Shown: one piece after another, positions 661 to 41,562 of the stretch
Layout of the letters: the number at the start of each line of letters is the position of its first letter
Position numbering within the stretch: the first letter of the stretch is position 1
Assembly (NCBI RefSeq): GCF_019797825.1
Contig: NZ_CP081855.1
Location: 1,488,001 to 1,552,000 of the forward strand
Reading direction: 5' to 3'
Source of the DNA: Limosilactobacillus panis
GTDB lineage: Bacteria > Bacillota > Bacilli > Lactobacillales > Lactobacillaceae
Length of the DNA stretch: 64,000 nt
The notes under the pieces: model-generated
Databases searched by the model: none
What the model was told of the DNA's origin: nothing
What the model saw: the letters and a program-made list of their open reading frames with translations, nothing else
Translations under genes and position numbers: made by a program

Positions 661-3105
661 CTATTGAATATTCATTTTACCAATTGGAAAGTCATAGTCG
701 ACGTAGTCCTGGTTAGCATTACTCGTCAGTGAGTAGCGGCTAATCAACGTGTAGTCATCACCAGGGCGGAGACCGATGACCGTCCACTGGACATTAAAGC
801 CAGACTGACCGGCAGCCGGATACTGGTTACCAACCGCCCTAGCAACATCCAGCCGTTCCAGCCCCGTTTGTTGATAAGTCAAGGTGTGGCGGCTAACCTC
901 CCTGCCCAGGGTGTTGTCGAACAAGATCAGGGTATGAACCGGGTTGACCATCCGCGTGGCGTGCCAGCCAGCCGCCGTCACCGTGTACTGACCAGCGCCA
1001 GCCGGTTGGACAGTCCATTTATCTAGGTTCCCCGCTTCATTGCCGTTCTCTAGCACCTTTGACGGGTACCAGTAGTCAGTGTACTGGCTACCGTTCCCGT
1101 TGCCATTTCCCGTGGCCGAACTCGAGTAGCGACTGATAACCACGTACTGGTGGCCGGGAACGATCTGGGCGTCCTTCAGGTCCAGACTCAGGTTGAAGCC
1201 GGACTGACCAGTACCGGTAATTCCCGGGTAAACCCGTTGGACATCGGGCCGGGCAACGTTATCGACGTTAAAGGAGGCCACCTGGCGGTTAGCTGTGCTG
1301 TCGTAGAGAATAATGAAGCGGTGCTGCTCAAATTGGGAGACCGCGTTGGCATGCCAACCGGCGATATTGAGCTTGACGCCACTAATGCTGAAGTTATCCA
1401 GGTGGCCAAGGTTAGCGTAGTTACCTTCCGTCAGTGGTGCAAAGTAGTAGTCCACCGCATTGCTGTTTCCCGCCGGGTCATCTGTATAACGGCTGAGGAC
1501 CTGGATACGCTGGTTAAAGTTCAGCTTATCAACGGCGAAGCGGACGTCAAAGCCCGACTTGGCGGCCCGGTCAACGTCCGGGTAAACATTGGCGACGTCG
1601 GCTCGGTTGACTCCATCAGTGACGAGCTGCCGGGCCACCTCCCGGCCGTTGTTGAGGACGATGATGTAGTGGTAAGGGCGGTTGGCGGCCTTGTTGGTGG
1701 CGTGCCAACCGGTCAGGTGCAGCTGACCATCAGTGACCTTCGCCTGGTCGAGGCAGGCCCGGTTAGCCTGGTCCACGGCAACCGGGGCAAACCAGTAGTC
1801 CACATAGCCCGCGTTTCCCGCGGCGTCACTACTGTAACGACTGATCAGCTGAACCGCAGTCGTGTTGGCTAAGGCATTGCCTAAGTCAATCTTGACTGAG
1901 AATCCTGAGTGGACAGCGTTATAGACGTTGTGGGCGGCCCGCACGTCTTCTCGGGTGACCGGATTAACCAGGGTCCGGCCGAGCTCGTGGCCATTCTGGT
2001 CGAGGGCGATAATGTAGTGGTAGGCCCGCCCCTGACTGGCGTTGGTAGCGTGCCAACCCGTCGCAATAATCGCCCCATCCGTTGTCAGATGAGCCCCATC
2101 AATGTAGGCGTAATTGCCGTTGTCGTTTTGGTCCCAGTTCCCGACCACCGTGCCGGCATTGCTGTAGTTATTGGCGTTGAAATCGGTCCCGGATGTCCAA
2201 ACGTAGTGCATGTCGATGTTTTCCAGCTGGAACTTGAAAGTTATCCCGTTGGCATACCGCCCGGTCCCGGTACCATAGGTCAGTGATGGGTACAGGGCCA
2301 TGGCCGTCACCGGCTGGTTGACGGTCAGGAAGTTTTGGGCATGACCGAAATTATCGGCCGCGTCGTTAAAGAGCATCCCCATCACCCCGTAGAAGATTGA
2401 CGCCCGGAGATCATCCATGGTTGTGATGGTAAAGAGCGGCACGGCGCTATTGTCCACAAAATCGCGCCCTTTGGCCTCCGCAAACGGTCGGGCCCGTAAG
2501 CCCGAAACGTTATCAATGTAGATCTGCTGGGCCGCAATGTTTTCCGACCGACCGTTTAGAATGGCAAAGTCGTGCCAGCCCCCGTTGAGCAGGGACTCGT
2601 TCTTGGCCTGGTACTGGAGGGCAACGTTACGGGTCTCATTGATGGTCCCCTCGTTTTGGACGAACGGTTCTTGACCAAACTCTGACCGGACCTTGTTCAC
2701 CAGACTGAGGCCATACTGGTTCATCTCGGCAACCTGGTCGGACGTCAGGTTGTTAACGTCGACCTTCTCCTGGGCCGCGGTGGAATCCGACTGGTAGTCG
2801 TTGCTGTACAATCCCTGCTGGGCCTGCTTTCCCAGGGCCTGAGCGGCGGCGGAACTATTGACGTTGCGGACGGCATCCAGGGTGTAGCCAGCGGGGATGT
2901 TAATGTTCTGGGTCGCCTGGACCTGACTTAAGTTATCTGAATAGAGCTGAACATAATTCGGCGTGGTGGCCGTACTTGTCTGCGTAGTCGCCGGCGTCAT
3001 CGTGGCGGTCGTGGTATCGGCCTTGACGTTTTGTCCGGCAATCACCAAACCGGCAACGGTTGTGATCGCTGCCAGTGCTGTAACATGCGCAATACTTGCT
3101 TTCAT
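661..3105 (-). CDS. Secreted CAP/PgrA-like surface exclusion domain protein with four wall repeats
   Basis: An 814-residue exported protein. Residues 1-29 form a signal peptide (cleavage near KAD). Residues about 117-300 resemble the SEC10/PgrA surface-exclusion domain, a CAP-like fold: H178, the S-E-N triplet at 187-189 and GHAQNF at 254-259 match the family pattern. Four copies of the roughly 115-residue repeat follow from about residue 330, each with a GWHAT/GWHAN motif, an R-DV motif, SGF and an SRY motif. There is no LPxTG, so the repeats themselves probably hold the protein in the wall. The start has a strong site (GAGGAGGA, 9 bases before ATG). It lies downstream of the M23 gene but behind that gene's terminator, so it may have its own promoter. 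Function in conjugation exclusion is not implied; wall binding is the safer reading. Confidence 0.8.
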   Translation of the reverse strand: MKASIAHVTALAAITTVAGLVIAGQNVKADTTTATMTPATTQTSTATTPNYVQLYSDNLSQVQATQNINIPAGYTLDAVRNVNSSAAAQALGKQAQQGLYSNDYQSDSTAAQEKVDVNNLTSDQVAEMNQYGLSLVNKVRSEFGQEPFVQNEGTINETRNVALQYQAKNESLLNGGWHDFAILNGRSENIAAQQIYIDNVSGLRARPFAEAKGRDFVDNSAVPLFTITTMDDLRASIFYGVMGMLFNDAADNFGHAQNFLTVNQPVTAMALYPSLTYGTGTGRYANGITFKFQLENIDMHYVWTSGTDFNANNYSNAGTVVGNWDQNDNGNYAYIDGAHLTTDGAIIATGWHATNASQGRAYHYIIALDQNGHELGRTLVNPVTREDVRAAHNVYNAVHSGFSVKIDLGNALANTTAVQLISRYSSDAAGNAGYVDYWFAPVAVDQANRACLDQAKVTDGQLHLTGWHATNKAANRPYHYIIVLNNGREVARQLVTDGVNRADVANVYPDVDRAAKSGFDVRFAVDKLNFNQRIQVLSRYTDDPAGNSNAVDYYFAPLTEGNYANLGHLDNFSISGVKLNIAGWHANAVSQFEQHRFIILYDSTANRQVASFNVDNVARPDVQRVYPGITGTGQSGFNLSLDLKDAQIVPGHQYVVISRYSSSATGNGNGNGSQYTDYWYPSKVLENGNEAGNLDKWTVQPAGAGQYTVTAAGWHATRMVNPVHTLILFDNTLGREVSRHTLTYQQTGLERLDVARAVGNQYPAAGQSGFNVQWTVIGLRPGDDYTLISRYSLTSNANQDYVDYDFPIGKMNIQ

Positions 3106-3217: not shown

Positions 3218-6200
3218 TTAACCCCGGTTGCGGATGACCGTCTGCGGGTTGAGCCAGGTTCCACTACCCGTGGCCTGGTTCGGGTCGGTCCAACTTGGCT
3301 GGAAGGAGTGGGCCAGGTCAACACCGTAGTTGGGACTGGTGTTGATGCCGAGGTGAAGGTGGTCAGTGTTCCGGTAACCGATGACCTGTCCCGGATAGAT
3401 GATCTGGTTCCGGTTAACGGTGATCTGGTTCCGGTTGCTGAAGGCCTCTTGGTAGACGTAGAGGTAGCGACCATCGTAGACGATGGCGTACCACCACATG
3501 ATCTGTCCCTTGTCGTCACGGCAGGTGTTGACGTCTAAGACCTTTCCACCGTGAACGGCGTGAACTGCGGAGCCAGGATGGTCATAGGCCCCGAAGTCCA
3601 GGCCGTCGTGGAAGCCATTCTTCCGTGGGTAGGAGGAGTAACCAAAGGCCTGACCTGAGGCAAAGTAACCTTCCCCATCGGCAGGGAATGGCCAGGACCA
3701 GCCATCGTTTTGTGGCAGGGCCCGGGCAATCCCGTTAGTGCCGAAGTCGTAGCAGTGACCATCGACATAGTTGATCCCGGTGTACATCTGACCGTGAAGC
3801 TGGTCGTTGTAAACCCAGAGGTCATCGGGGTTCGGTTGGTTTTCGTAACCATCGGAGAAGTAGTAGCGGTTGTTGTTGATCGTCCGCCAGCCGGTTGCCA
3901 CCTGTCCCCGGTCAGGGTCGTAGTAGACCGTCCCGCCGTTGAGGTGCTGGAAACCGGAGTTGATACTGACCATTGGGGAAACGAAATCAACGGCGTTACC
4001 GTTACCGGCGGCATCGTCGGTGTAGCGGTGGATAACTTTGATTCCCCAGTGGTTCATGGCCGCGCTAACCGGGAGCGTGGCGGCGAAGCCAGACTGGCCG
4101 GCATTACCGATCCACGGGGCCTGGCTGGCGCCCGCACCTGATGACTGGTTTGAATTGGTGTTGTTCAGGGCCCGGCGGTAGAATTCGTGCCCATCGGCCC
4201 CAATGACGATCAGGTACTGGTAAGGACGGTTGGCCGTAGCCATGGCGGCGTGCCAACCATTGATGCTGATGGTGTTGGCACTGCTGTTGTAGCTGACGGT
4301 TGCGGCCCCGGCGTTGGTTGCATAATCGCGGGTCCGGATGTCCGTGTAGTTGCTATTGCCATCGGCGGAAGCGGCCAGCCGGAGGATGAAGCTCAATTGA
4401 CCGTTCGTCAGTTGGTTGGCGGGGACGGGGATATCAACGGCAAAGCCACTATTAGCACTCTGGTAAATCTGTGGATACTTAGCCGCCACATCATTACGAC
4501 TGGCAAAGTTGATCCTGCTCCGACCGACCTCTTTCCCGTTGTACAGGGCGATGACAAAGCCGTTTGGTTGGCTCAGCCGTTGGTCACTGGCCAGCCAGCC
4601 GGTCACGTGGAGGGTATTACCGTTCTGACTGATGGAATCGACTGCGGAGGCGGACTGGTTCAGAGTTACCGGGCCAAGCCACATGTCTTGGCAAGCACCA
4701 CTGCCACCATTCCCCTGGGCGGAGTTCGAGTAGCGGCTGACAATCGAGTAGGAGTGACCAGGGGTCAGGTTAACCTGACCCAAATCGGCTTGGAAGCCGG
4801 ATTCGTCGGCGGTAACAACCTGGGGGTAGACCTTGGCAACGTCGTCACGGCTGACCGAACTAGTAACCCGCTGGGCGGCCACTTGGGTCCGGGTTGTATT
4901 ATCAAATACAATCAGGAAGTGGTAAGGCGCCGCCACCGCAAAGTCGTTGGCGTTCCAGCCGGTAACGGACAGGTGACCATTGCTGATGTTAAAGGAGTCC
5001 AGGCTCCCCTGGTTAGAGGTCGTCAGTGGCAACCACTTGTCAGTGTAGCGACCGTCCCCACCATTACCGTTGGCACTAGTCGAGTAACGAAGGACAATGG
5101 CGTACTGGTGGCCGCTGACGATATTATTACTTACCGGCAGAGTGGCGGTAAAACCAGAGTCGGCGGCGTTGTATGCAGCCAATCCCCGGGCAATTGCGGG
5201 AGTGGCTGCCGACTGCGTCTTTGCCGCGGCCACTTGACGGATGGCCGTCGTGTCAAAGAGGATGATGTAGTGGTTGGTCTCACCATAAGCCGCATCGGCC
5301 GCGTGGTAACCGTTGATGGTGAGCTGACCGTTCTCGTTCTTGATGCTGGTAATACCGGCCATGTTGGCGTTGAAGCTAATTGGTGCGAACCAGTAGTCGG
5401 TGTAGTTCTCGTTGGCGTCCTTGGTGGCGCTGTAACGGGAAATGACCCGGATCTGGCCCTCAACCATGCCCGCCTTTAACGGCATGGAAAGGGACCAGCC
5501 GGAGTTGGTGGCGTCGTACAGGTTCTCAAAGGACAGGGCAACATCAGGACGGGCAATGTTGGTGACCTGTTGCCGGGCGATTTCGTGCCCCTGGTCATCC
5601 AAGACAATGATGGTGTGGTATGGACGGCCCTCTTCACCAGAGGTGGCGTGCCAGCCGGCAAGGTTCAACTTACCGTTGGCGATTGATGCCGAATCTAGGT
5701 TGGCGCGGTTGGTGTGGTCCGCTTGAACCGGTGTAAACCAGAAGTCGACGTGGTTCCCTTCCCCACCCTTGTCATCGGAGCTGTAGCGGGAAATAACCTG
5801 CAGCTGGTCGTTGAGCCAGCGGCTATCGTTGCCAAAGTCGTGGTCAAAGGACCAGCCAGAGTTGGCGGAGTTGTAAATATTACCGTAGGCCCGGGCAACG
5901 TCGGGACGGGCAGTGGTATTTACCTTTTGCCGGTAAAGTTCGGTGTGCTGGGTTTGGTCGTAGATGATGATCCAGTGGCTTTGGTCCTGGTAACTGGCGT
6001 TGGTAGCGTTCCAACCACTGGCCTGGAAGTGGCCGTTGGCAAAGGACCAGCCGTCTAGGTGCCCTTCGTTGTTTTGGTCAAAGGTAATTGGTGCGTACCA
6101 GTAATCAGCGCCATCGTTAGCGGCCTGGTCCCCACTGTAGCGGCTGACAATTTGAAGCGAGTGGTTGACCCAGTCAGCAGAATTGATCTTAAAGGATGCG

Positions 6201-6878: not shown

Positions 6879-7445
6879 CTAACTACCCAAAATACTAATC
6901 CATAATGGGACAAGTCTTAAATTACCATTTGTTATTTGCCAATACATTACAAATACATTGATTACTGCCATGCTGATTATCAGCATATTTATATACTTAT
7001 ACTTCCGACTTTCAACTATTTTTCGTAACATGAATAGAACCATAATAACCAATACAGTTGCCATCACAGAGAAGGTTCGTGTTGCAGAAACATAATTAGT
7101 AGCGGAAAAGCCTAACGCCACTCGTGATAACAATGCCCCAAAGAAAGATGCTAATAAGATAAAGTAATTATCTAGTTTCATCTTATAACTATAGTTAAAA
7201 AGCAGTAGAGCAATGAAAATAACATAAACAATAAAAGATAATAGACATCTTTTCGAGTAAATGGTATCAGGAGTAAATAATCCTTCTTTCGGAAAGACAA
7301 ATAGTTTTGAAAGGCCTTCAGAATGTGTAATGTTAAAGATATCAAAAAGGATTGAATAGGTTCCCCATATTATTAAAGTCAAAAATGAAGTAATTACATA
7401 CGGCTTTAATAGTCTATCCTTTTTGACTTGTTTAATATAAAAGAT
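6879..7445 (-). pseudogene. 3' fragment of an IS-split DUF6056-like membrane protein
   Basis: This is the C-terminal 188 residues of a polytopic membrane protein whose 5' part is at 9000-9830. Several hydrophobic helices are visible (for example LLSFIVYVIFIALLLF and MATVLVIMVLFML). The IS4-family element at 7446-8999 interrupts the gene, leaving a 9-bp duplication (ataaaagat) on both sides. Joining the flanks with one copy of the duplication restores an uninterrupted frame (IPVIF then YIKQVKKD) and a protein of about 462 residues. That size and hydrophobic pattern suit the DUF6056 family, multi-pass proteins often found in polysaccharide clusters. The fragment has no start or ribosome site of its own and is probably not translated. 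Confidence 0.8.
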
Positions 7446-9830: not shown

Positions 9831-9843
9831 CTTTTCTTTCTCC

Positions 9844-12327: not shown

Positions 12328-12948
12328 TTAAACCAACTTAACCCAAGTAGTAATTGAAAATGCTACTACCATTCCTAAAAGAAAACCAACCGCTGCTCCA
12401 ATTAATGTGAATTTTTTAATTGAAGGAGTAGTGATACTTTGTGCATCATCAGCGGTGGCCTTCGCAAAAAGAGAAATCTTTCCAGCTGACGGAACCCTTT
12501 TTGGAATTTGTTTAGCTGCAGCATCAGTTACCGCATTAACAATCTTTGATGACGCTTCCGCAGTTCCAGCTTTAGCACTAACCTTTACTATTGTAGTTTG
12601 CGTTACTGGATGGGCTTTCACTATTGTACTAATCTGTTTTGCGCTGTAATCCTTCCTTATCTTTTTAGGTAGGCTTCTGTGGGCAGTCCGTGCAACGTTA
12701 TCGCTTTTAACGATTTTTGCATATGTACTACCTAAATTAATATCAGCTTGGACTTCCTCATTAGCAGAATTTCCACGATAGGAATGGCTAGTCATCAGAC
12801 TTCGAGTAGACACATAATCGGTATGCTGCTTATGTTTCGCATACAGGCCACCAATAAGGCCAAACACTAGCGTAGCAACAGCGATAACTATAATATTATG
12901 CCAAACGATTTTTGAAATATTTTTTATACTAATCTTATTATCTTGCAT
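12328..12948 (-). CDS. Wzz/YveK-type polysaccharide chain-length regulator
   Basis: About 206 residues. It has the layout of a Gram-positive polysaccharide co-polymerase modulator: short cytoplasmic start, first helix IIVIAVATLVFGLIGG, an extracellular domain of roughly 125 residues, a Pro-containing region near the second helix (TTPSIKKF) and second helix LIGAAVGFLLGMVVAFSI. ATG at 12948 is used because AAGGAG lies 9 bases before it; it overlaps the end of the polymerase gene by 11 bases, so the two are probably translated together. No tyrosine kinase or phosphatase partner is found in the window, which is unusual for this type of Wzz. Confidence 0.8.
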   Translation of the reverse strand: MQDNKISIKNISKIVWHNIIVIAVATLVFGLIGGLYAKHKQHTDYVSTRSLMTSHSYRGNSANEEVQADINLGSTYAKIVKSDNVARTAHRSLPKKIRKDYSAKQISTIVKAHPVTQTTIVKVSAKAGTAEASSKIVNAVTDAAAKQIPKRVPSAGKISLFAKATADDAQSITTPSIKKFTLIGAAVGFLLGMVVAFSITTWVKLV

Positions 12949-14149
12949 TTTTATTCTCCTTATTAAGACTACTGAAATATTCATTGGATAGCAAAGCTAA
13001 CAAGAATGGATTATAAATAATTTGAACGATATGTGGTTCAAACATAAAGCTTAATGATGAAACTAGAATTACAGCTGAGAGGATAAAAGTTTTACATACC
13101 GTGGACCTTATTGCAATAAAGGTTAGACAAAGAATTACGATAATAAAGGCCAACAACCCCCACAATAAAATTAGCCGAATATATGAAGAATCAATATAGA
13201 AATAGTTATTTTGCATGCCGCCACTAGCTAGCTTTTCTAATTTCTGTCCCTTTATACCCGCAAAAGAATGTTCAACGATTGATCTTCCTAAAAGATTTAT
13301 ATCATACTTTTCAAAAGCACGATGACCCAATTCTAATCGGTCTGAAAGTAAAGAATTTACTTTGTACATAAAATGATTAGAAGAATTATAGAAATAAGAA
13401 AGAAAGATTATAATCGTTGCTGAAATTGGAGTAGCCATCCACCAAAAGGAAGCAAGTATGTTTGACAACTTTTTCCCCCGATAGGCCCGCTGAGCAACAA
13501 CCATCACAGGTATTATAATTAGAGTTGCCAAAAAATCTAATTTAGTATTGGTGAGCCACATACAAATAAAGTCACCTATAATTATTAACAGATAATCAAG
13601 CACATTAAGCTTACCAAACTTTAAGTAACAATAGGCAAGCGCTAGGAACAAATAGTGCGCCGCAAGGACCGATGGATAAAGCATACCAAGGGAATACCTC
13701 GTTGGCCTTATTTTAGAATAATATATAAGGTTAGGAATTATTTTAACCAAAGAGAAGATCATAACCATCATTATAAAAAGGACGGTTAAGTAAAAATACC
13801 ACCGGATAATATCCCTAAAATTAACATTTTTCGCCCCGATAACAAAAGGTGAAATTATTAATAGATCAGAATATTGAGTTGTTCGCCAAACTATCAGTCC
13901 TAAAATTAGGAAAACTGAAATTACAAAAAGTTGCTTCCTTTCCCACTGATCCAACACAAAAATTTTAAACAACAGTAATGGTAATGAAATATATGTAAAT
14001 ATTCTTAACCAATGATTACTAATTGCTGGTATAAAAGTCGTTTCACTTAAAAGCGTGGGCAAACAGTAAAACAAAAAGGCAATCAGATATACTTGGCGTC
14101 CATTAATAGGATAGTCCCAAGCCTTCATCCAAAAACTATTTTTTTCCAA
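12938..14149 (-). CDS. Wzy-like polysaccharide polymerase
   Basis: A 403-residue protein with about 10-12 membrane helices and a large outer loop at about 265-320, the pattern of Wzy O-antigen/EPS polymerases. The motif DSSYIRLILLWG after that loop is typical of this class. It should join repeat units on undecaprenyl diphosphate at the outer face. The start is TTG, supported by a strong AGGAGGT seven bases upstream. It is followed directly by the overlapping Wzz gene. It lies 26 kb from Wzx, although both serve the same pathway. It is AT-rich. Confidence 0.78.
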   Translation of the reverse strand: MEKNSFWMKAWDYPINGRQVYLIAFLFYCLPTLLSETTFIPAISNHWLRIFTYISLPLLLFKIFVLDQWERKQLFVISVFLILGLIVWRTTQYSDLLIISPFVIGAKNVNFRDIIRWYFYLTVLFIMMVMIFSLVKIIPNLIYYSKIRPTRYSLGMLYPSVLAAHYLFLALAYCYLKFGKLNVLDYLLIIIGDFICMWLTNTKLDFLATLIIIPVMVVAQRAYRGKKLSNILASFWWMATPISATIIIFLSYFYNSSNHFMYKVNSLLSDRLELGHRAFEKYDINLLGRSIVEHSFAGIKGQKLEKLASGGMQNNYFYIDSSYIRLILLWGLLAFIIVILCLTFIAIRSTVCKTFILSAVILVSSLSFMFEPHIVQIIYNPFLLALLSNEYFSSLNKENKNAR

Positions 14150-19998: not shown

Positions 19999-21357
19999 AT
20001 GGACAATAACAACAACGAACGCGAGTCGCGTGAAGAATACCGAAAAAGACTAGAGGAGCAAATTTATAAGAACGCTCACGATGAGGAAACGACTGAGCGT
20101 TCCCACCATGAATTTAATCATCACCATCATAAAAAGCCTAAGGCAGGCCGGCCAACCCCACCGCCAGTTCCAGAAAAACACCACTTCCACACACCAAAGT
20201 GGATGAAAGCCCTAATCTGGCTACTAATCATCCTGGTTGTCGGTGGTGGCTTCTACGAATATCACAAGGTCCACAAAATGGCCACCGGGGTCTTCAGTGA
20301 CGGTAACGGCAAAATCAGCAAGAAACTTCAACAAGGTAAGCCAGTCTCGGTTCTGGCCATGGGAACTGATGTTGGCGCCCTACACCGGGGTAATGCTGGT
20401 GGGAATACCGACTCAATCGAACTCTTCACTATTAACCCCAAGACACAACGGATTACCATGACAAGTATCCCGCGTGATACCCTAGTTCGTGTCAACACCG
20501 ATGACGGTGCGGATTACGTCAAAATTAATGCCGCCTACTCTATTGGGGGGCCAAAGCAGACAGTTAAGCAGGTCAGCGAATTACTTGACGTGCCAATTGA
20601 CTATTACGCCGTTATCAACATGGGGGTCCTCAAGAAGGTAGTTAACTCCCTTGGCGGTGTCGAGGTTGATAACCCGTTCGCCTTTACCTATGAAGGCCAC
20701 CACTTCAAGAAGGGTAAACAACACCTGAATGGTAATGAGGCCTTAAAGTACTCACGGATGCGGTACCAAGATCCAAATAACGATTACGGCCGGCAAAAGC
20801 GGCAACAACAAATCTTGTCCAGCGTCATTAAGAAGTTTAAGAAATCCGGATCCATTAGTTCTGCCAACAAAATCATGGATGCGGTTGGGGATGGTGTTAA
20901 GGCCAATATTCCAATCGATGACATTGCAACCCTGTATGGTAACTATCACAGTGCCATGAACAATGTCACGACCTACCACTTCCAAGGCCAAAACGCCATG
21001 ATTGACGGGGCTTCTTTCCAAATTGCTAGTCCAAAGGAGATCAACCGGGTTTCTAAGCTGGTTCGTAAGGAGCTTGGCCTCAAGCCAAAGAAAGTGGTTA
21101 ACCATGAAACAAAGATGTACAAGTCACAGCCAAATTACAACGGCTATAATAAGACTGACTTCATCTTGCCAGGTGGTGCCTCTTACAATGATCCCGGTAG
21201 CGGTAATGGTAGTGACTACGTAACTAGCAGTAGTCGTCACCAGTCCCAATCCTCCTCAGATGAAGATGATGAAAATAATTCATCATCACAAACCAGTCCA
21301 CGTTCTTCATACGGAACCGGGTACTATCGTTCACCGCAAACCCGTTACGATTACTAA
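19999..21357 (+). CDS. LytR-CpsA-Psr family wall-polymer ligase
   Basis: A 452-residue enzyme of the family that moves lipid-linked polymers (teichoic acid or polysaccharide) onto peptidoglycan. Residues 1-67 are cytoplasmic and His/Lys-rich, a single helix spans about 69-87, and the LCP domain covers about 115-370. Conserved residues visible include D138 (NTDSI), SIPRDT at 156-161 and the basic cluster with R253, R255, D258 and R265 (SRMRYQDPNNDYGRQ). The last 80 residues are Ser/Asn-rich and disordered. It is one of three long plus-strand genes in the surface locus, with its own promoter and terminator, and is the best candidate here for anchoring the local polysaccharide. Confidence 0.92.
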   Translation: MDNNNNERESREEYRKRLEEQIYKNAHDEETTERSHHEFNHHHHKKPKAGRPTPPPVPEKHHFHTPKWMKALIWLLIILVVGGGFYEYHKVHKMATGVFSDGNGKISKKLQQGKPVSVLAMGTDVGALHRGNAGGNTDSIELFTINPKTQRITMTSIPRDTLVRVNTDDGADYVKINAAYSIGGPKQTVKQVSELLDVPIDYYAVINMGVLKKVVNSLGGVEVDNPFAFTYEGHHFKKGKQHLNGNEALKYSRMRYQDPNNDYGRQKRQQQILSSVIKKFKKSGSISSANKIMDAVGDGVKANIPIDDIATLYGNYHSAMNNVTTYHFQGQNAMIDGASFQIASPKEINRVSKLVRKELGLKPKKVVNHETKMYKSQPNYNGYNKTDFILPGGASYNDPGSGNGSDYVTSSSRHQSQSSSDEDDENNSSSQTSPRSSYGTGYYRSPQTRYDY

Positions 21358-26658: not shown

Positions 26659-27501
26659 TTAATCAATCGCTTTTAAGAAATCATGTAAGGCTTCTTGCCA
26701 GCTAATTGGCTGGTATCCCGCTGCCTTGACCTTGTCGAGGCTCATAATTGAGTGACGCGGTCGGTAAGCCTTTTGCGGGTATTCTGCGGAGGTAACTGGG
26801 CTTACCGTGACATCCTTATTCTTCAGGATTTCACAGGCAAAGTCATACCAGGTACAGGAACCATCGTTGGAGAGCTGGTAAGTGCCGTAAGCTATCTTGT
26901 TCTGAACGGCGAAGAGCATGAACTCAGCTAAGGTCCGGGTCCAGGTTGGTCGGCCCGTCTGATCATTGACAACCGTCAGATGGTCATGGGTCTTAGCTAG
27001 GCGAAGCATCGTGTAAACAAAGTTCTTGCCAAACTCGCCAAACACCCAGGAAGTCCGGATGATATAATACTTATCCATCGTCTCGCGGACGGCCTGCTCA
27101 CCCGCCAATTTGGCCTTGCCATACTCGTTCTTCGGGTTCGTTTTTGCATCTGTCGAGTACTCACCCGCATTCGTACCGTCGAACACATAGTCAGTACTGA
27201 TGTAAACCAAGGTGGCACCATACTGGTGGGCCGCTTGGGCGATGTTCTTGGTTCCCTCAGCATTGACCTGCCAGTTGGCTTCCTTCCCCTCGTCTTCCGC
27301 CTTATCAACTGCCGTGTAAGCGGCACAGTGGAAAACCACCTTGGGTTTAATTGCTGCAAACCGTTTTGCAACTGCTTGACGGTCAGTAATGTCGAGACCC
27401 TGCGAATCAAAGGCCTGGTAGTCAATCCCCCTCTGGTCCAGTAAGTGACGGAGTCCCGTCCCGAGCTGACCATTTGCTCCCGTGATTAGGATGTCTGCCA
27501 T
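26659..27501 (-). CDS. rmlD: dTDP-4-dehydrorhamnose reductase
   Basis: A 280-residue SDR enzyme making dTDP-L-rhamnose in the last step of the pathway. It has the nucleotide motif ITGANGQLG at the start, AAYTAVDKAE, STDYVFDG and the catalytic Y-x3-K in EYGKAKLAGE. It lies behind rmlB after a gap with a weak terminator-like hairpin. GGAGGA precedes ATG. The sugar would feed the GT2 enzymes of the local cluster. Confidence 0.96.
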   Translation of the reverse strand: MADILITGANGQLGTGLRHLLDQRGIDYQAFDSQGLDITDRQAVAKRFAAIKPKVVFHCAAYTAVDKAEDEGKEANWQVNAEGTKNIAQAAHQYGATLVYISTDYVFDGTNAGEYSTDAKTNPKNEYGKAKLAGEQAVRETMDKYYIIRTSWVFGEFGKNFVYTMLRLAKTHDHLTVVNDQTGRPTWTRTLAEFMLFAVQNKIAYGTYQLSNDGSCTWYDFACEILKNKDVTVSPVTSAEYPQKAYRPRHSIMSLDKVKAAGYQPISWQEALHDFLKAID

Positions 27502-27516
27502 TATCAGTTTTCCTCC

Positions 27517-27554
27517 TTAAAAAGGGGCCACGGCAAGCAATTACCGTTACCCCT
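27517..27554 (-). terminator. Possible internal terminator or attenuator between rmlB and rmlD
   Basis: Stem aggggccacgg against ccgttacccct with two mismatched or wobble positions; on the minus strand TTTTTAAGG follows. It could reduce expression of rmlD and the amidase relative to rmlACB. Confidence 0.5.
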
Positions 27555-27618
27555 ATTCGTTATTATCCATTGTACATCACGTTAGGTTACCGGATGTTAC
27601 AACTTCATTTTATTTATA

Positions 27619-28602
27619 TTACTTCAAAGCGGCCTTAGCCTTCAGTGGCTTCCACCATGCTTCGTTGTTCTTGTACCAGTCAATTGTCTTAACGATTCCT
27701 GTATCAAAGGTGTATTCCGGTTTCCAGCCTAACTCCTTCTCAATCTTGCTTGGGTCGATAGCGTAACGCTTGTCGTGGCCCAGGCGGTCCTTGACGTACT
27801 TGATGTGGTCTTCAGAAATTCCTAAGTTATCAACAATCAGGTGGACAATCTCGTTGTTAGTCCGTTCGTTGTGGCCACCGACGTTGTAAACTTCACCCGG
27901 CTTACCGTTCCGCAGGACCAGGTCGATTGCCTGACAGTGATCGGAAACGTAGAGCCAGTCACGAATATTTTTACCGTTGCCATAGATTGGCAGGTCCTTA
28001 CCTTCCATCCCATTGGAGGTCACCAGTGGAATCAACTTTTCCGGGAATTGGTATGGACCGTAGTTGTTAGAACAACGGGTAATGTTGACGTTGTAGCCGT
28101 AAGTCTCAAAATAGGATCGTACAATCATGTCCGCTGAAGCCTTACTTGCCGAATATGGTGAGTTTGGTTGCAGTGGGGATTCTTCCGTGAAGTAGCCCGT
28201 TGCCCCCAGGGTACCATAGACTTCGTCGGTTGATACTTGCAGGAACTTCTCAACACCTTCCTTCTTGGCAACGTCCAGCAAAGCCAGGGTCCCCTGAACA
28301 TTGGTTTCTACAAAGATGTCTGGGTGAAGGATTGAGCGGTCAACGTGTGATTCAGCCGCAAAGTTAACAATGTGGTCGATGTTGAATTCGTGGACCAGGT
28401 GGGTTACCAGTTCACGGTTGACGATATTCCCCTTAACGAAGTGGTAGTGGGGGTTATCCTTAATATCATCCAAATTGTGGATGTTCCCTGCGTAAGTCAG
28501 CAGGTCTAAGTTAATCAGGTTATCGTCAGAATGCTTCTTGAGCATGTAGTGGATGAAGTTACTACCGATAAAGCCGGCTCCACCGGTTACTAGAATATTC
28601 AT
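27619..28602 (-). CDS. rmlB: dTDP-glucose 4,6-dehydratase
   Basis: A 327-residue SDR enzyme that converts dTDP-glucose to dTDP-4-keto-6-deoxyglucose. GGAGFIGS near the start binds NAD. STDEVYG and the catalytic YSASKA are present, along with DRSI and the sugar-binding RCSNNYGP. It starts three bases behind rmlC, as expected for an rmlACBD operon. Confidence 0.97.
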   Translation of the reverse strand: MNILVTGGAGFIGSNFIHYMLKKHSDDNLINLDLLTYAGNIHNLDDIKDNPHYHFVKGNIVNRELVTHLVHEFNIDHIVNFAAESHVDRSILHPDIFVETNVQGTLALLDVAKKEGVEKFLQVSTDEVYGTLGATGYFTEESPLQPNSPYSASKASADMIVRSYFETYGYNVNITRCSNNYGPYQFPEKLIPLVTSNGMEGKDLPIYGNGKNIRDWLYVSDHCQAIDLVLRNGKPGEVYNVGGHNERTNNEIVHLIVDNLGISEDHIKYVKDRLGHDKRYAIDPSKIEKELGWKPEYTFDTGIVKTIDWYKNNEAWWKPLKAKAALK

Positions 28603-28605
28603 TAT

Positions 28606-29181
28606 TTACTTTTCCTCCCCATAAGTAAAGTTCATTTCAGCATCCTTGAAGGATGGGTGGTGTTGGTCCTTTTCGGACAGGATCAGGTGGTCAGTTGGCA
28701 TTGGCCACTTGATGTTTAAGTCAGGATCATCGTAAGCAATTCCCCGGTCAGCATCTGGTGCGTAGTAGCCGTCGACCTTGTAGGCAACGTTAACGTTTGG
28801 CGTCAGGGTAACAAAGCCGTGTGCAAAGCCCTTGGGAACCAGCAGTTGCCGGTGATTGTATTCACTTAAAATGAAGCCTTCCCACATACCATAAGCTGGT
28901 GACCCCTTCCGGATGTCGACGATGACATCGTAAATGGCCCCAGTAACGGCCCGCAGGAGCTTAGTTTGGGAGTATGGTGCTAATTGGTAGTGCATCCCCC
29001 GCAAAACACCGGGTTCTACAGATAGCGACTGGTTATCCTGGGTAAATTCAACGTTGATGCCTGCCGCCTCAAACTTGTTCTTGGTGTAGGTTTCGGTGAA
29101 GAAGCCCCGGTGGTCGCCAAAGACATCAGTTTCCACAATCTTTGCATCTGGTAACGTAGTGTCGATAACTTTTAATGACAT
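28606..29181 (-). CDS. rmlC: dTDP-4-dehydrorhamnose 3,5-epimerase
   Basis: A 191-residue cupin enzyme, third in the dTDP-L-rhamnose pathway. It shows GFFTETY, LRGMHYQ with the catalytic His, VDIRKGSP and PKGFAHGF. It lies 15 bases behind rmlA and next to rmlB. Confidence 0.97.
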   Translation of the reverse strand: MSLKVIDTTLPDAKIVETDVFGDHRGFFTETYTKNKFEAAGINVEFTQDNQSLSVEPGVLRGMHYQLAPYSQTKLLRAVTGAIYDVIVDIRKGSPAYGMWEGFILSEYNHRQLLVPKGFAHGFVTLTPNVNVAYKVDGYYAPDADRGIAYDDPDLNIKWPMPTDHLILSEKDQHHPSFKDAEMNFTYGEEK

Positions 29182-29196
29182 TTATTTCCTATCTCC

Positions 29197-30066
29197 TTAG
29201 TTTTCCTTAGCCAGCCGTAAGAGGTATTGGCCATAATCATTCTTCTTCAGTGGTTGTGCCAATTGGACAAGCTTATCCTTATCGATGTAACCCATCCGGT
29301 AGGCAATTTCCTCAATTGAGGCCACCTTAAGGTTTTGCCGCCGCTCAATCGTTGCGATGAAGTTCGCCGCTTCAAGCATCGAGTCATGAGTCCCGGTATC
29401 AAGCCAAGCATAGCCCCGGCCCATCAGCTCAACATCAAGCTTCCCCCGGCGCAGGTACTCCTTATTAACGTCAGTAATCTCAAGTTCACCCCGGGCAGAC
29501 GGCTTGATATGTTTAGCAATATCAACCACGTTATTGTCGTAGAAGTAAAGCCCCGTAACAGCATAGTTACTCTTCGGGTGGGCGGGCTTTTCCTCAATTG
29601 ACAAGGCGTGCATCTGGTCATCAAAGTCAACCACCCCAAACCGTTCTGGGTCGTTGACGTGGTAACCAAATACGGTGGCCCCTTCGGTCTTCTTAGCCGC
29701 CGCCTGGACAAGCTCGGAAAGACCGGCACCGTAGTAGATGTTATCCCCTAAAATTAAAGCAACTGAATCGTCACCAATGAAGTCAGCGCCGAGGATGAAG
29801 GCCTCCGCCAGGCCGTTAGGTTTCTCCTGCACCTTGTAGGTGAAGTGCAGACCAAGGTCTGAACCGTTTCCCAAGAGCTCCTTAAACAGAGGGGTGTATT
29901 CGGGAGTCGAGATAACTAAGATATCACGAATCCCCGCCAGCATTAAGGTTGACAATGGATAATAAACCATTGGCTTATCGTATACTGGAATCAACTGCTT
30001 GGATATTCCCCGCGTGATTGGGTACAGGCGGGTGCCAGACCCACCAGCTAAAATAATTCCTTTCAT
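29197..30066 (-). CDS. rmlA: Glucose-1-phosphate thymidylyltransferase
   Basis: A 289-residue nucleotidyltransferase producing dTDP-glucose, the first enzyme of the rhamnose branch. It has [11 protein letters not shown] near the start, [20 protein letters not shown] and [15 protein letters not shown] at 30066 is used because AAGGAGG lies nine bases before it; an upstream reading start overlaps that site. It is first of the rmlA-C-B-D-amidase set. Confidence 0.97.
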
Positions 30067-30144
30067 AGTGGCCTCCTTAAATGCCAAAATCCATGTTACA
30101 TTTTATCACACTTAGCAAGGGCCCGTGGTTAAATTCATAGATAA

Positions 30145-34707: not shown

Positions 34708-37263
34708 CTAGTAACTTAATGCCCGTTGACGGTCGGCGTTCCAGTGGGAATAGAATTCACCATAGGACATTGCTTCCTTCCGACCAGTCCACGGGTTGTT
34801 GTAGTCGAACCCGTTAGCGTTGTAACCAGTTAAAGCAATGGCATGGTTAACAAAACCATTCATATTGGCCATCCAAACGACAACCAGGTGCCCTTCCCGC
34901 AGCTTTTCTTGAATTGCTTGTAGGCTTGTCCCGGTCATCACCTGACTGTGGCCAACGTAGTGGTTAACCACGGGAGCAACCCCAGTTGGGAAAACCCACC
35001 AGCCGCTCGGGCTGAATGGATTACCGACGAAGCCAAAGTCACCATTGCTGCTCCGTGGCATCTCATTGGCCAGTTGAATCTTGTTGACATTGTAGCCCGC
35101 GTAGCGAAGCATCATCGTGACTGCCGTAATTTCACATCCCGTTGGCAATTCAGGAAGTTGACAAATTACCTCAGCGTTATTAAAGGCTCCCACAATGTTC
35201 CCCATTGCGTCGTAGTAGAGTGTTTTGAGACCACTGGTTTGGGCACCGGAGTTAATGGAGACGTTGCCAGAATAATAATCGATGTAGTTCCCATTACCGT
35301 TGACATCATCGGTTAGCCGGTCAATAATCCGAACAATCTTGTGCTGGGCACTATCCGGCAGAGCAAATGTTAGTTGGAAGCCGGAGTGGTCACTGTTCAG
35401 GATGTAACCAACGGCATTTCCAACGTCCGGTCGGGCCCGGTTAATATCTTGAACCTGGTGGCGAGTCAGTTCATGACCGTTTTGGTCCAGGAAAATCAGC
35501 CACTGGTAAGGTTTGCTTGCGGAGACGTTACTTGCGTGCCAACCACTTACGTAGATATTACTACCGTTAACCGTTACCTGGTCGAAGGCTCCCTGGTTAC
35601 TTGCGTAAGCGGGTGTCCACTGGTCATCCTTATTGCCTTCCCCCTTACTACCATCGCTTGAGAAGCGCAGAACAATTTGCATGTTTTGAGTGATGGTGGT
35701 TGGATCAAGCTTAACAAGAGTATTAAAGCCACTCTTCTTACTGTTATAGATTCCACTGTACACCTTGGCAACGTCTGGCCGGTCGTTCAAGGTCAACTGC
35801 TGACGGGTAATCTCCTGGTTACCATTTAAGACGATGATGTAAGGGTGACTATCCGAGCCAGAATAGTCACTGACCATCCAGCCGCTAATCTGCAACCCCT
35901 GCTTGGTCATCTTCTGACTATCGATGAAGTAGTGGTGCTGGTTTAAGACCTTCGGAGCAGACCAGAAGTCAACGTACTTTCCGTCGCCGCCGTTACCCTT
36001 ATTACTGGTGGAGTAACGACTAACGATTGAGTAGGAGTGCCCGCCGACTAGTGCATTCTGCAGGCTGAAGCTACCCGTAAAGCCAGAGTTCTTGGCAGTC
36101 TTCACGTTTGGGAAGGCCTTAGCAACGTCCTCACGGGTAACCTGTTGGGCGTTTGTCACTGCCACCTGGCTATTGGCGGTGTTGTCAAACAGAATTAGGA
36201 AGTGGTTATTTTCAAACTGGGAGACATCATTAGCGTGCCAACCGGTGACATTCACCCGACCACTGCTTAAGTCCCAGCTATCCAGACAACCCTGGTTAGA
36301 GAAGTGGCCGTTTGTGATTGGGGCAAAGTAGTAGTCAACATAGTCGCTGTTACCATCGGCGGAACCGGTGTAACGGCTCAATACCTGGAGTTGGTCGTTA
36401 AAGTTGAGGTTACCCATGGCAAAGGTGGCCGTGAAACCAGATTGACCGGCCTTGTCAACCCCAGGATAAACCCTAGCAACGTCAGAGCGACTAACAGCCT
36501 TAACTAGCTGCCGCCCCACTTCCTTACCGGTTGTCCGGTCGAGAATAATAATGTAGTGGTTATCCTTGTTGGCGGCTCGATTAGTAGCGTGCCAGCCGGA
36601 CAGTACTAACTGGTTATTCTTAACCACCGCGCTATCCAAGTTCCCGTAGTTATTATGGTCAATGGTCAGTGGAGCAAACCAGTAGTCAACACTATCACCA
36701 TTTCCCTGCTTATCAGCTGTATAACGGCTGATCAATTGAACACTATTCGTGGTTGGCAGGACTTTTGAAAGATCAAACTGAACTGCAAAGCCGGACTTTT
36801 CTGCCCCAGCCACGTTATGCTGTCGCTGAACATCCAGCCGATTAATCCCTTGGTCCGTAATATTCTGTCGGCTGATTTCCCGGTGGTTAGTTTGATCATA
36901 GGCAATAATGTAGTGATAAGGCCGAGTAGCCGAACCATTGGTAGCGTGCCAGCCACGGGCGATTAACTGTCCCTGATCATTTACAGCCTGACTATCCATA
37001 TTGGCGTAGTTTCCTTGATCGTTTGAGTTCACTTTATTCGTTGCTTGATCAGTATTCGCTGCTACCGCAGTTGTAGTTGTAGCACTTGCCTGCGTTGCCT
37101 GTTGTCCAACGTTAGTGGATTTTTCAGCAGTTACCGTTTGGTTGGTCGTTGTTACGTCAGCTTGACCATTCACCTGTGATAGCCATAGCGCAAAGCCGCA
37201 ACTAGTCATCGCCAACGTCGTCATTGCCACGTGCTTGGCATGACTAAAATCAATAATCTTCAT
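34708..37263 (-). CDS. Secreted C39-like cysteine peptidase with five wall repeats
   Basis: An 851-residue exported protein. Its signal sequence (ends near GQAD) has AMTTLAMTSCGF in common with the amidase at 23974. Five repeats cover about 75-660 in the same order as in the amidase and the M23 protein at 37324. The C-terminal domain at about 695-851 looks like peptidase C39_2 or a related papain-like fold, with C710 (LPTGCEIT), H807 (VNHAIALTGY) and N823 (YNNPW). It may trim a peptide cross-link or process a secreted protein; the substrate is unknown. The start is supported by GGGAGAG. A terminator hairpin lies only about 18 bases before the start. Confidence 0.85.
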   Translation of the reverse strand: MKIIDFSHAKHVAMTTLAMTSCGFALWLSQVNGQADVTTTNQTVTAEKSTNVGQQATQASATTTTAVAANTDQATNKVNSNDQGNYANMDSQAVNDQGQLIARGWHATNGSATRPYHYIIAYDQTNHREISRQNITDQGINRLDVQRQHNVAGAEKSGFAVQFDLSKVLPTTNSVQLISRYTADKQGNGDSVDYWFAPLTIDHNNYGNLDSAVVKNNQLVLSGWHATNRAANKDNHYIIILDRTTGKEVGRQLVKAVSRSDVARVYPGVDKAGQSGFTATFAMGNLNFNDQLQVLSRYTGSADGNSDYVDYYFAPITNGHFSNQGCLDSWDLSSGRVNVTGWHANDVSQFENNHFLILFDNTANSQVAVTNAQQVTREDVAKAFPNVKTAKNSGFTGSFSLQNALVGGHSYSIVSRYSTSNKGNGGDGKYVDFWSAPKVLNQHHYFIDSQKMTKQGLQISGWMVSDYSGSDSHPYIIVLNGNQEITRQQLTLNDRPDVAKVYSGIYNSKKSGFNTLVKLDPTTITQNMQIVLRFSSDGSKGEGNKDDQWTPAYASNQGAFDQVTVNGSNIYVSGWHASNVSASKPYQWLIFLDQNGHELTRHQVQDINRARPDVGNAVGYILNSDHSGFQLTFALPDSAQHKIVRIIDRLTDDVNGNGNYIDYYSGNVSINSGAQTSGLKTLYYDAMGNIVGAFNNAEVICQLPELPTGCEITAVTMMLRYAGYNVNKIQLANEMPRSSNGDFGFVGNPFSPSGWWVFPTGVAPVVNHYVGHSQVMTGTSLQAIQEKLREGHLVVVWMANMNGFVNHAIALTGYNANGFDYNNPWTGRKEAMSYGEFYSHWNADRQRALSY

Positions 37264-37323: not shown

Positions 37324-39945
37324 TTAACCATTTAAACCGTTTCGGATAATTTCAAGCGGGTTCAGCCAAGTCCCGTTATTATTAAAGGAGTTGGCTAAAT
37401 CGTAGTTGAAGTTATGGTTCTTAGTAATCCCAATGTGAACGTGCGAAGTATCCCGAGTACCAATAACGTCACCAACATTAATCTGTTGACCTGGGGTAAC
37501 GTGGATGTCACCACGACTAGCAAACGCTTCTTGGTAAACGATCAGGTAATCACCGGTATCTTCTAGAACATACCAGTCCAGACCAGCGGTATAACCAACG
37601 CTGACAATCTTACCGGAGTGAATTGCTTGAACATGGGCACCGGGGTGGTCATATGAACCGAAGTCAAGACCATCGTGGAAGCCGTTTAGACGGAATTCAC
37701 CACCAGGGTTAACACCGAACAGCTGAGCACCGGCGAAGTAACCTTCACCAACCGCTGGGAACGGCCAAGCCCATTTATCAGCATGGATAGAAACCGGTTG
37801 TGATTCAACATCAACGTAGTCTCCGTTACCATTCACATCGTTAGTAATCCGGTGGATAACCCGGACTGTGTGGTGGTCAAGACTTGTTGGAATGTTGAAG
37901 CCAAGTTGGTAACCAGATTTGCCGCTATTGGTAATTGCTGGCTCAGCACTAGCAACATCAGGACGGCTTCGGTTGATATCTAAGACTCGTTGCCGGTATA
38001 GCTCCTTACCACTTTCTGCATCGACAAAGATTAAGTATTGATAAGGCTTATTAGCAGATTGGTTGCTAGCGTGCCAACCACTGACATAAATACCATTATC
38101 ACTAACGTTAATTTGGTCAAAAGAACCAGCATTAGTAGCATAAGTAGTACTGTACTGGTCATCGTAATCACTGTTACCGTCTTCAGCACCGGAGAACCGC
38201 ATCAAGACTTGAATATTACCAGTAACTTGCGCTGGGTCAAACTTAATGGTGGTATCAAAGCCGCTCTTAAGGCTGTTGTAAACATTTGACTTTGCATTGG
38301 CAACATCAGCCCGATTATACAGGTTAACCTTTTGACGGCCAATTTCTTTACCATTTGATAATACAATGATGTAGGCATTGTTACGATTAAGGGAGAAGTC
38401 ACTGGCCATCCAACCCTTAACATGCAAACCTTCACTGGTCATTTCAATGCTATCCAAGTTATTTTCATGCTTGTTAAATGATGGTAAGCTAAACCACTTA
38501 TCAGTATACTGACCATCACCGCCGTTACCATTAGCACTCGTTGAATAACGACTTACTAACGAATAAGAGTGCCCAGATGTCAAGTTAAGGTCGCTGAGGT
38601 TGAAGCTACCCTTAAAACCTGATTGAGCAGCCGTAATAATAGATGGATAGGCTTTTGCAACATCAGGGCGACTAGTTGTACTGGGCTTAATCGCAGTAAC
38701 CTGCTTGTTTGCCGTATTATCGAACAGAATCAGGTAGTGGTTGCTTTCCAGTTTGGAAATATCATCAGCATGCCAGCCGGAAACAATTAACTGCTTACCA
38801 TTGCTGATATCAACACCATCCAGGTTTCCTTGGTTAGTGTAATTACCGTTAGTGATTGGGGTGAAGTAATAGTTAACATCATCGGCAAGTTGAGCATTAG
38901 CGTCAGCGCTGTAGCTACTGATGATTTGTAACTGGTGGTTTAAGTTGAGCTTACTCAAGTCAAAATTGACGTTAAAGCCAGATTGATCAGCATTATCAAC
39001 GTCCGGGTAGGCCTTAGCAACATCCGGCCGACTAACTGCTTTGACCGTTTGACTAGCAACGACCTGCTTGGTTGTCCGGTCGTATACCGAAATGGTGTGG
39101 TATGGCTTGTTAGCAGCCAGATTAGTAGCGTTCCAACCAGTAACCTGCAGTTGGTTATTGTTTACCGTCACACTATCAAGGTAAGCATGGTTTTCCTTAT
39201 CAAAGGTAATCGGCGCAAACCAAAAATCAGTGTAGTTCGAATTACCAGAAGTAGAAGCACTGTAGCGGCTGATAAAGCTAATTGAATCCGCATTAGCCAA
39301 GGCATCTGTGGAAAGCTTCAAATTGACGTTAAAGCCGGACTGAGCAGCTCCGTAAACGTTATGGGCCTTTTGCACATCTGGCCGGCTAACCGGATCAGTA
39401 ACTTGAGTCCGGGTAATTTCAGATTTAGTGGTGTTATCGTAAGCAATGATGTAGTGGTATGGCTTGCCTTCTGAAGAGTTAGTGGCGTTCCAACCAGAAA
39501 CTTGTAGTTGTCCGTCGTTACCCAGCTTAACAGAATCCAGGTAAGCGTAGTTGCCTTTATCATTTTGATTGTAGTTAGATTCCTGACTATTATCACTAGT
39601 CGTTGCAGTAGCGGCAGCAGTGACCGTAGTTGTCGTTACTGAAACAGCGTTATCAGTTGCCGTAGTTGCAGCACTATTTTGAGAATCTGCAGCAGAATTT
39701 GTTGCTGAAGCAGTACTGTTTGTTAAAGTAGCAGTATTATTGTCATTATCATTTGAGGTGCCATTAGCACTAGTGTTATTGACTGTTGCCGTCGTCTGGG
39801 CATCAGTCTGAGTTTGGTTAGTAGTATCAATCTGATTAGCAGAAACCTTACCGTGCATTAAGAAAAGTGCACTTCCGCAAACGGTGATTGTTGGTAAAAT
39901 TTTGCTTTTGAAATTCTTAAGGTTAAAAATAATGTTTTCCTCCAA
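37324..39945 (-). CDS. Secreted M23 endopeptidase with five wall repeats
   Basis: About 870 residues, exported. A signal sequence ending near VSAN is followed by a Thr/Ala/Asn/Ser-rich linker to about 130. Five repeats run to about 720, and the M23 domain fills the rest, with zinc ligands H757 and D761 (HDGLD) and H835/H837 (HVHIG). The boundary given uses a TTG, whose reading aligns with the related N-terminus at 6697, but that TTG overlaps the ribosome site. GGAGGA is placed 4-7 bases before two ATT codons (39933, 39930), so a rare ATT start giving a protein five or six residues shorter, depending on which ATT is used, is quite possible. The repeat order matches the proteins at 23974 and 34708. 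Confidence 0.88.
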   Translation of the reverse strand: MEENIIFNLKNFKSKILPTITVCGSALFLMHGKVSANQIDTTNQTQTDAQTTATVNNTSANGTSNDNDNNTATLTNSTASATNSAADSQNSAATTATDNAVSVTTTTVTAAATATTSDNSQESNYNQNDKGNYAYLDSVKLGNDGQLQVSGWNATNSSEGKPYHYIIAYDNTTKSEITRTQVTDPVSRPDVQKAHNVYGAAQSGFNVNLKLSTDALANADSISFISRYSASTSGNSNYTDFWFAPITFDKENHAYLDSVTVNNNQLQVTGWNATNLAANKPYHTISVYDRTTKQVVASQTVKAVSRPDVAKAYPDVDNADQSGFNVNFDLSKLNLNHQLQIISSYSADANAQLADDVNYYFTPITNGNYTNQGNLDGVDISNGKQLIVSGWHADDISKLESNHYLILFDNTANKQVTAIKPSTTSRPDVAKAYPSIITAAQSGFKGSFNLSDLNLTSGHSYSLVSRYSTSANGNGGDGQYTDKWFSLPSFNKHENNLDSIEMTSEGLHVKGWMASDFSLNRNNAYIIVLSNGKEIGRQKVNLYNRADVANAKSNVYNSLKSGFDTTIKFDPAQVTGNIQVLMRFSGAEDGNSDYDDQYSTTYATNAGSFDQINVSDNGIYVSGWHASNQSANKPYQYLIFVDAESGKELYRQRVLDINRSRPDVASAEPAITNSGKSGYQLGFNIPTSLDHHTVRVIHRITNDVNGNGDYVDVESQPVSIHADKWAWPFPAVGEGYFAGAQLFGVNPGGEFRLNGFHDGLDFGSYDHPGAHVQAIHSGKIVSVGYTAGLDWYVLEDTGDYLIVYQEAFASRGDIHVTPGQQINVGDVIGTRDTSHVHIGITKNHNFNYDLANSFNNNGTWLNPLEIIRNGLNG

Positions 39946-41559: not shown

Positions 41560-41562
41560 AGT

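Follow-up and report, generated by a model that had tools for sequence, protein, structure and literature searches.

A repeat shared by wall enzymes of a Limosilactobacillus polysaccharide locus: a candidate wall-address module

Seven proteins built from one repeat lie among polysaccharide genes in the window, the whole stretch of 64,000 nucleotides of Limosilactobacillus panis that was analysed here. What could one repeat do on several different enzymes of such a locus? According to the original prediction, it binds the polysaccharide made there. The reading favoured below, with a probability of about 60%, is that the repeat is a carbohydrate-reading wall-retention module, matched to the locus polysaccharide and used throughout the genome as an address label.

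The repeat family and its locus

Searched against the seven window proteins only, a profile made from 27 of their GW-anchored units finds exactly 35 repeats (4, 7, 5, 5, 4, 5 and 5 in the genes at 661, 3218, 21433, 23974, 30194, 34708 and 37324), none with a domain E-value above 2.3e-24. The prediction of one family of about 35 copies in seven secreted proteins is thereby confirmed, including the counts per gene. The repeats are 107–119 residues long (median 114), and neighbours are separated by 1–14 residues. Positions G20 and G74 are invariant; D7, W21, A23, I36, R57, D59, V60, S73 and R95 are conserved in at least 90%. The arrays have no Pfam family match at E 0.01, nor does any NCBIfam model cover the repeats. 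Identification as a GW/SH3, LysM or choline-binding domain was rejected, since the arrays lack such a Pfam match.

The family, first regarded as one that could not be named with certainty, does have a name. The designation "RDV" reportedly originated with Kralj in 2004. Judged by profile, the window repeat belongs to the RDV repeats known from Lactobacillus GH70 glucansucrases, also described as the GH70 FnIII-like domain (PMC11299179). The GH70 protein of the window's own genome (G000:C1:1457759-1459534) carries five RDV repeats (E 5.1e-44 to 2.9e-30), and the GH70 and window repeats share RxDV, SGF, R[YF]S, GW and D, forming one family by profile. The consensus given in PMC11299179, R(P/N/S/T/Q)DV-x11-12-(S/A)G(Y/F)-x17-22-R(Y/F)S, strictly fits 7 of the 35 window repeats and 28 after loosening by the author's own pattern; the strict form is present four times in the GH70 protein of this genome itself. 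GW lies inside the first 30 residues in 34/35 window repeats. The two sets differ in GW-to-RxDV spacing (34–38 in 31 of 32 window repeats measured; about 50 in the account of PMC11299179) and in their bearers, which are glucansucrases/GtfB enzymes for GH70 repeats and mainly peptidoglycan enzymes in the window. PMC11299179 (2024) models the repeat as FnIII-like, describes the conserved D, GW, RxDV and SGF residues as a surface cluster and leaves the role open. PMC5216370 says that the variable N-terminus of Lactobacillus GtfB is believed to help attach it to the cell wall.

Repeats at the same position in the proteins 23974, 34708 and 37324 are on average 57% identical, and those at different positions 33%, so that whole five-repeat arrays were probably copied between these genes. 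Repeats 2 and 3 of 30194 differ very little, by their sequence a recent duplication; the counterpart in the close relative G030 has three repeats.

All seven RDV genes are on the minus strand (Table 1). Each protein has a hydrophobic N-terminus (by eye), and the LPxTG motif is absent from all seven. Five kinds of wall-active domain had been proposed for them. SEC10/PgrA, M23 (3218 and 37324), Amidase_2, glucosaminidase and C39-like domains were found; in 21433, Pfam and NCBIfam recognise the KxYKxGKxW signal peptide and no catalytic domain. The M23 match of 3218 (22.4 bits) is under the Pfam cut-off of 28.7 bits, and the domain is 53% identical to the M23 of 37324. Protein 3218 also contains one choline-binding-like repeat (3857-3955, residues 915-947) between the RDV array and M23; its Choline_bind_3 match (19.2 bits, under cut-off) lies outside the array and is the sole choline-binding match in the seven proteins.

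Table 1. Repeat-bearing and polysaccharide genes of the window
Feature	Position	Strand	Basis and content
SEC10/PgrA-domain protein, 814 aa	661..3105	-	TIGR04320 E 7.4e-43; 4 RDV repeats 685-2118
M23 peptidase-like protein, 1159 aa	3218..6697	-	7 RDV repeats 3968-6424; M23 3344-3613
Wzz-type chain-length protein and protein with ~10 TM segments	12328..14149	-	PF02706, TIGR01006 (TIGR01006 under cut-off); hydropathy
LytR-CpsA-Psr (LCP) protein	19999..21357	+	PF03816 E 2.1e-48
KxYKxGKxW-signal protein, 799 aa	21433..23832	-	PF19258 E 4e-15; 5 RDV repeats 21508-23301
Amidase_2 protein, 887 aa	23974..26637	-	PF01510 E 2e-9, amidase 24073-24474; 5 RDV repeats 24601-26361
rmlD, rmlB, rmlC, rmlA (dTDP-L-rhamnose synthesis)	26659..30087	-	Pfam
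Glucosaminidase, 760 aa	30194..32476	-	PF01832 E 3.2e-36, catalytic domain 31625-32011; 4 RDV repeats 30209-31594
GT2 glycosyltransferase, between RDV genes	32654-33598	-	Pfam
GT4 glycosyltransferase, between RDV genes	33591-34682	-	Pfam
C39-like peptidase, 851 aa	34708..37263	-	PF13529 E 1.5e-24; 5 RDV repeats 35257-37014
M23 peptidase, 873 aa	37324..39945	-	PF01551 E 1.4e-7, M23 37414-37680; 5 RDV repeats 37789-39555
Wzx-type flippase and UDP-galactopyranose mutase (glf)	40126..42681	-	PF01943, PF03275
Two GT2, two DUF4422, one Bac_transf priming transferase	44810..49014	-	Pfam

Interleaving of these wall enzymes with polysaccharide genes, as first described, holds by Pfam and NCBIfam domains, with rml, glycosyltransferase, wzx and glf genes among the RDV genes. 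The gap between the end of rmlD and the start of the amidase gene is 21 bp; between the end of the C39 gene and the start of the GT4 gene it is 25 bp. The protein with about ten TM segments may be Wzy-like, by TM number and place only. Proteins of the LCP family ligate glycopolymers to peptidoglycan, and the presence of one in the locus fits a wall-linked glycan.

A transposase gene (7453-8928, plus strand) lies between the minus-strand pieces 6879-7481 and 8925-9857 (DUF6056), which look like one membrane gene split by an IS. Transposase genes inside the polysaccharide region are located at 16138-17592 (DDE type, Pfam) and 43738-44700 (IS30-like, by look only). Two similar small lipoprotein-like genes on the plus strand (46-594 and 42928-43416) flank the RDV/polysaccharide region; relatives of the latter adjoin glf in G029, G030 and G021.

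Distribution of the repeat outside the locus

The repeat is spread more widely than the locus, both in this genome and outside the genus. Profile search of the window's genome (G000) yields 66 RDV matches, 31 of them outside the window, where the partners are NlpC/P60 (twice), a beta-lactamase-like domain, YkuD L,D-transpeptidase, GH70 and GH25; in three further RDV proteins or ORFs of this genome no catalytic domain was recognised. The GH25 gene (two RDV repeats) adjoins holin and phage tail-type genes and therefore probably encodes a prophage endolysin. Two ORFs that overlap in different frames (L027:5961-8391, G000:C1 about 1652-1654k) share one RDV array upstream of PG_binding_1 and NlpC/P60; a frameshift has probably split this gene. 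A 114-aa ORF on the 46.6-kb contig C2 of the same genome (L028:6932-7276) is almost only one RDV repeat.

Plasmids and phages also carry the repeat. L. reuteri plasmid pLRI02 has a holin and a GH25 with two RDV repeats. Plasmid pLRI01 of L. reuteri I5007 has, near recombinases, a gene of about 463 aa that is largely four RDV repeats (L192:4031-5422); similar genes on other L. reuteri plasmids are annotated as BspA family. In a phage collection, 38 records match the RDV profile at E 1e-3, all of them from Enterococcus; the matched genes are mostly annotated as lysis genes, with three hypothetical and one beta-lactamase regulator. Three Enterococcus phage endolysins that were fetched have two RDV repeats each, which points to wall binding. 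The C-terminal domain of EfAmi1, an E. faecium prophage amidase (PDB 8c4d, PMC10167349), matches the RDV profile over 109 residues (E 1.2e-12). As in the window protein 23974, it is fused to Amidase_2; unlike the window proteins, EfAmi1 has a single copy, and the similarity is remote. In PMC10167349, this domain is reported as unresolved in the crystal, called unclassified and considered probably a carbohydrate-binding module. Side chains of enterococcal rhamnopolysaccharide matter for adsorption of phage Idefix, according to PMC6356687.

Among 251 sampled Lactobacillaceae genomes, 17 match RDV: four Limosilactobacillus and 13 from six other genera. Ten non-Limosilactobacillus proteins from nine of these 13 genomes were scanned, eight of which carry Amidase_2, glucosaminidase or GH25 (seven genomes, four genera). 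The RDV partners are mostly wall enzymes, inside and outside Limosilactobacillus. A phage Dit-type tail protein from another Lactobacillaceae genus (L081:5254-7815, G090), which weakly matches a Dit carbohydrate-binding domain, holds one RDV repeat as well, so the repeat may also serve phage adsorption. Another match outside the genus, of 85 residues, stands in frame before a phosphoketolase lacking its start in a fragmented genome and is perhaps due to a chimeric contig.

Binding modules and polysaccharide genes across the genus

Among 50 Limosilactobacillus genomes, RDV occurs in 24, of which 18 have 13–93 copies ("RDV-rich", a threshold of 13 chosen after the counts were known) and six have 1–7; the other 26 have none. 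In RDV-poor G034, an ORF for a translation-factor-type GTPase is directly followed by one with three repeats (L102:5614-8586); a mobile element may carry them. In the first RDV-less loci to be read (G033, G013, G047 and G041), the interval from RF3 (prfC) to glf encodes homologues of the window's enzymes whose repeats are different, while the glucosaminidase, M23 and amidase domains are 62–73% identical to those of the window. The enzymes of G041 and G047 carry choline-binding-type (CB) repeats, and those of G033 and G013 a 43–44-residue repeat (T3); other species have T4 (about 24 residues) or T5 (about 40 residues), which form two further classes. The non-RDV modules of these four sequence classes are choline-binding-like, and their bearers are homologous to RDV bearers (glucosaminidase, M23, amidase, GH25, GH70). 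The choline-binding-type repeat (PF01473/PF19127) matches the G041 and G047 proteins, E reaching 5.6e-81 and 4.6e-81 in G047; T4 proteins carry PF19127, which cannot separate CB, T4 and T5. T3 matches the Pfam choline-binding repeat weakly. A T3 profile finds dextransucrase chain 7dt1 with E 2.5e-28 and the autolysin 2bml of pneumococcus with E 0.0012; T3 is predicted to be a beta-hairpin solenoid (pLDDT about 81–90 for the module, 59 for the whole model), and the model finds choline- and glucan-binding domains in Foldseek.

GH70 homologues swap modules likewise, being 67–96% identical over the aligned part (37% in G016), and GH25 homologues show the same exchange (50 places located, 30 fetched). 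GH25 endolysins more than 60% identical to the prophage-like one (eight places including it) all have two RDV repeats and all come from RDV-rich genomes. For M23, 26 of 42 places were examined. The 79 glucosaminidase places were sorted by the author into 33 of locus type, all examined, and 46 second copies elsewhere in the genomes; 20 of the latter were fetched and none has RDV, CB or T3, so that not all wall enzymes join the module scheme. The second glucosaminidase of the window's genome presumably carries LysM.

Within a genome, one module prevails. At least 10 matches are found for RDV in 18 of the 50 genomes, for PF19127 in 19, for T3 in 8 and for none in 8. Two modules reach this number in three genomes (G016, G025, G046), while shuffles average 12.8 and 0 of 20,000 are as low. 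In six enzyme families (112 proteins, 42 genomes; GH70, C39 and Ami2 members partly met via the locus or the module), 151 of 152 within-genome pairs share their module, without relatedness correction; 5000 shuffles give a mean of 57.5 and a maximum of 86, and the sole discordant pair is in G016. When every fetched protein with a module is counted (182 proteins), 442 of 476 pairs are concordant, and discordance is confined to G004, G016, G025, G034, G037, G046 and G047; as the "other" proteins of this set include regions picked for holding a module, the six-family figure is fairer. The concordance families were built by BLAST at E 1e-8, with duplicates and segments under 60 module residues dropped; the count covers module-bearing proteins only, and there is cross-reaction between the profiles for CB and T5 (purity as low as 0.5). 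Among the exceptions, G016 mixes two solenoid modules and G046 has 11 T3 matches. G025, with T5 on its locus M23 and GH25 and RDV on other genes (L139, L185, L186, L210), may be caught mid-exchange or may be an assembly mixture.

The module state is nearly independent of relatedness: on an EF-G tree it changes at least 17 times over 38 typed genomes, close to the average of 20.6 (16–23) for shuffled labels. This tree of one gene has 41 leaves and several weak nodes; G016 was coded as T3 and G025 as T5 or RDV, G044 was left out (bad branch), G009 and G046 were kept with gaps, and 8 of the 50 genomes, without a listed EF-G match, are outside it. G033 (T3) and G034 (T4) are 99.4% identical in EF-G and 95.4% in the second glucosaminidase, whereas their locus glucosaminidase domains are 54.9% identical; those of same-module pairs reach 91.3% (G033/G037, both T3) and 98.6% (G034/G004, both T4). 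In these sequence comparisons the domain tracks the module and not the species, indicating that exchange moves whole genes; pure in-place domain swapping between species was rejected on the same pairs. By source labels taken as given, L. reuteri proteins carry T3 (P0123, P0205) or T4 (P0245, P0250) and L. reuteri records carry RDV, which suggests that the module varies among strains of this species.

Profile matches next to EPS genes in Limosilactobacillus would, by the original prediction, support it, and they are found: in 15 of 17 RDV-rich genomes having rmlC, the nearest listed RDV match is within 12.2 kb of it (1.0–2.8 kb in 14, 12.2 kb in one); in G019 and G025, all RDV matches among those listed are on contigs other than that of rmlC. 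The rmlC gene is present in 17/18 RDV-rich and 11/32 other genomes (Fisher p 2.8e-5, ignoring relatedness; a partial rmlC of G004 scored as absent), and at completeness of at least 90% in 16/17 and 10/24 (p 7.5e-4, ignoring relatedness). The RDV-rich genome without rmlC, G010, also lacks glf, so its polysaccharide locus may be unassembled. Full-length rmlC is also present in 8 of 26 RDV-free genomes, so rhamnose in itself does not set RDV users apart. In six of these eight (G027 and G032 were left out), where RF3 and glf share a contig, rmlC is never within 20 kb of the RF3-glf interval.

Proposed role and competing explanations

Kindred enzymes carry another block in other species, and a genome nearly always keeps to a single kind; probably, then, the block reads the bacterium's own sugar coat. 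As a wall-retention module, RDV would be a beta-sandwich of the FnIII/Ig-like type, about 115 residues long and in most cases arrayed in 2–7 copies. After export, such arrays of weak carbohydrate-binding sites would keep the enzymes on wall polysaccharide and could stand in for covalent anchors in the seven proteins lacking LPxTG. Their target would most likely be the rhamnose-containing wall polysaccharide encoded among the RDV genes (rmlABCD, glycosyltransferases, wzx, glf, LCP). The loci of congeners would differ in the glycan made, and where another glycan is made, homologous enzymes would bear another module. On replacement of the polysaccharide locus, enzymes with the old module would lose their address, and selection for exchange of the set could follow; phage endolysins would read the same address. 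The repeat very probably binds the wall. That the locus polysaccharide is its ligand, as the original prediction had it, is somewhat more likely than not, and rhamnose as a part of the epitope is proposed tentatively, at slightly under even odds. That polysaccharide loci and one-module enzyme sets are often exchanged as wholes, with prophage endolysins following the same code, is an evenly balanced proposition.

The main rival is linkage drag: the locus and adjacent enzyme genes could be exchanged as one block, with the repeat binding a general ligand (peptidoglycan or teichoic acid, for example). Exchange of EPS loci is common, and the locus glucosaminidase follows the module in G033 and G034 despite their near-identical EF-G; as genes move whole, part of the module concordance may arise in this way. 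This explanation is nevertheless judged unlikely, because dispersed genes agree too (RDV proteins of G000 at 284-288k, 974k and 990k; T3 matches of G033 at 911k and 1159k) and so do the GH25 endolysins related to the prophage-like one, while a general ligand gives no call for module exclusivity. The locus polysaccharide is favoured as the ligand over this rival.

The repeat could instead bind alpha-glucan from the cell's own GH70 enzymes, and not a wall polysaccharide, and serve retention in the matrix, as RDV is best described in GH70 enzymes and T3 is akin to glucan/choline-binding solenoids. The occurrence of RDV in Enterococcus phage endolysins, and of amidase, GH25 or glucosaminidase partners in most of the proteins scanned from other Lactobacillaceae, makes this very unlikely. 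Highly improbable is a role as rigid spacers distancing catalytic domains from the membrane. FnIII domains are frequently mere spacers, the fold here would be FnIII-like, and SAXS of GTF180 indicates an extended N-terminus (PMC4919382). Against spacers stand the varying order of the seven proteins, with arrays that precede the catalytic domain in some and follow it in others, replacement of the array by choline-binding-like modules in homologues, and the conserved residues, which PMC11299179 places in a surface cluster.

The carbohydrate-reading wall module favoured here is known in kind. In S. pneumoniae, choline-binding proteins and phage lysins attach without a covalent bond, through repeats that fit a wall polymer and are common to many wall enzymes, and the RDV system would be analogous, its repeats being likewise shared by wall enzymes and phage lysins. 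The RDV fold would differ from the pneumococcal one, which T3 of RDV-less species resembles, and pneumococcus is known to use one module whereas Limosilactobacillus congeners differ in theirs. New, judged by the papers listed in searches of the open-licence PMC literature, are the GH70 RDV repeat as a module of wall enzymes and endolysins, recognised by sequence, and the coordinated exchange of modules across congeners; none of the papers listed reports module exchange in Limosilactobacillus.

A domain whose function the GH70 literature left open thus receives a testable role and is joined with the unclassified domain of an enterococcal endolysin. Close relatives with homologous enzymes, differing in binding modules and polysaccharide loci, provide a natural experiment. 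Should the matching hold true, the wall glycan type, the lysins active on a strain and the wall genes that can be productively transferred would be predictable from the module type, which could be of use for probiotic Limosilactobacillus and cell-surface display. If the exchange as wholes is true, it would amount to a switching akin to that of serotypes, with a joint change of surface polymer, wall enzymes and compatibility with phages.
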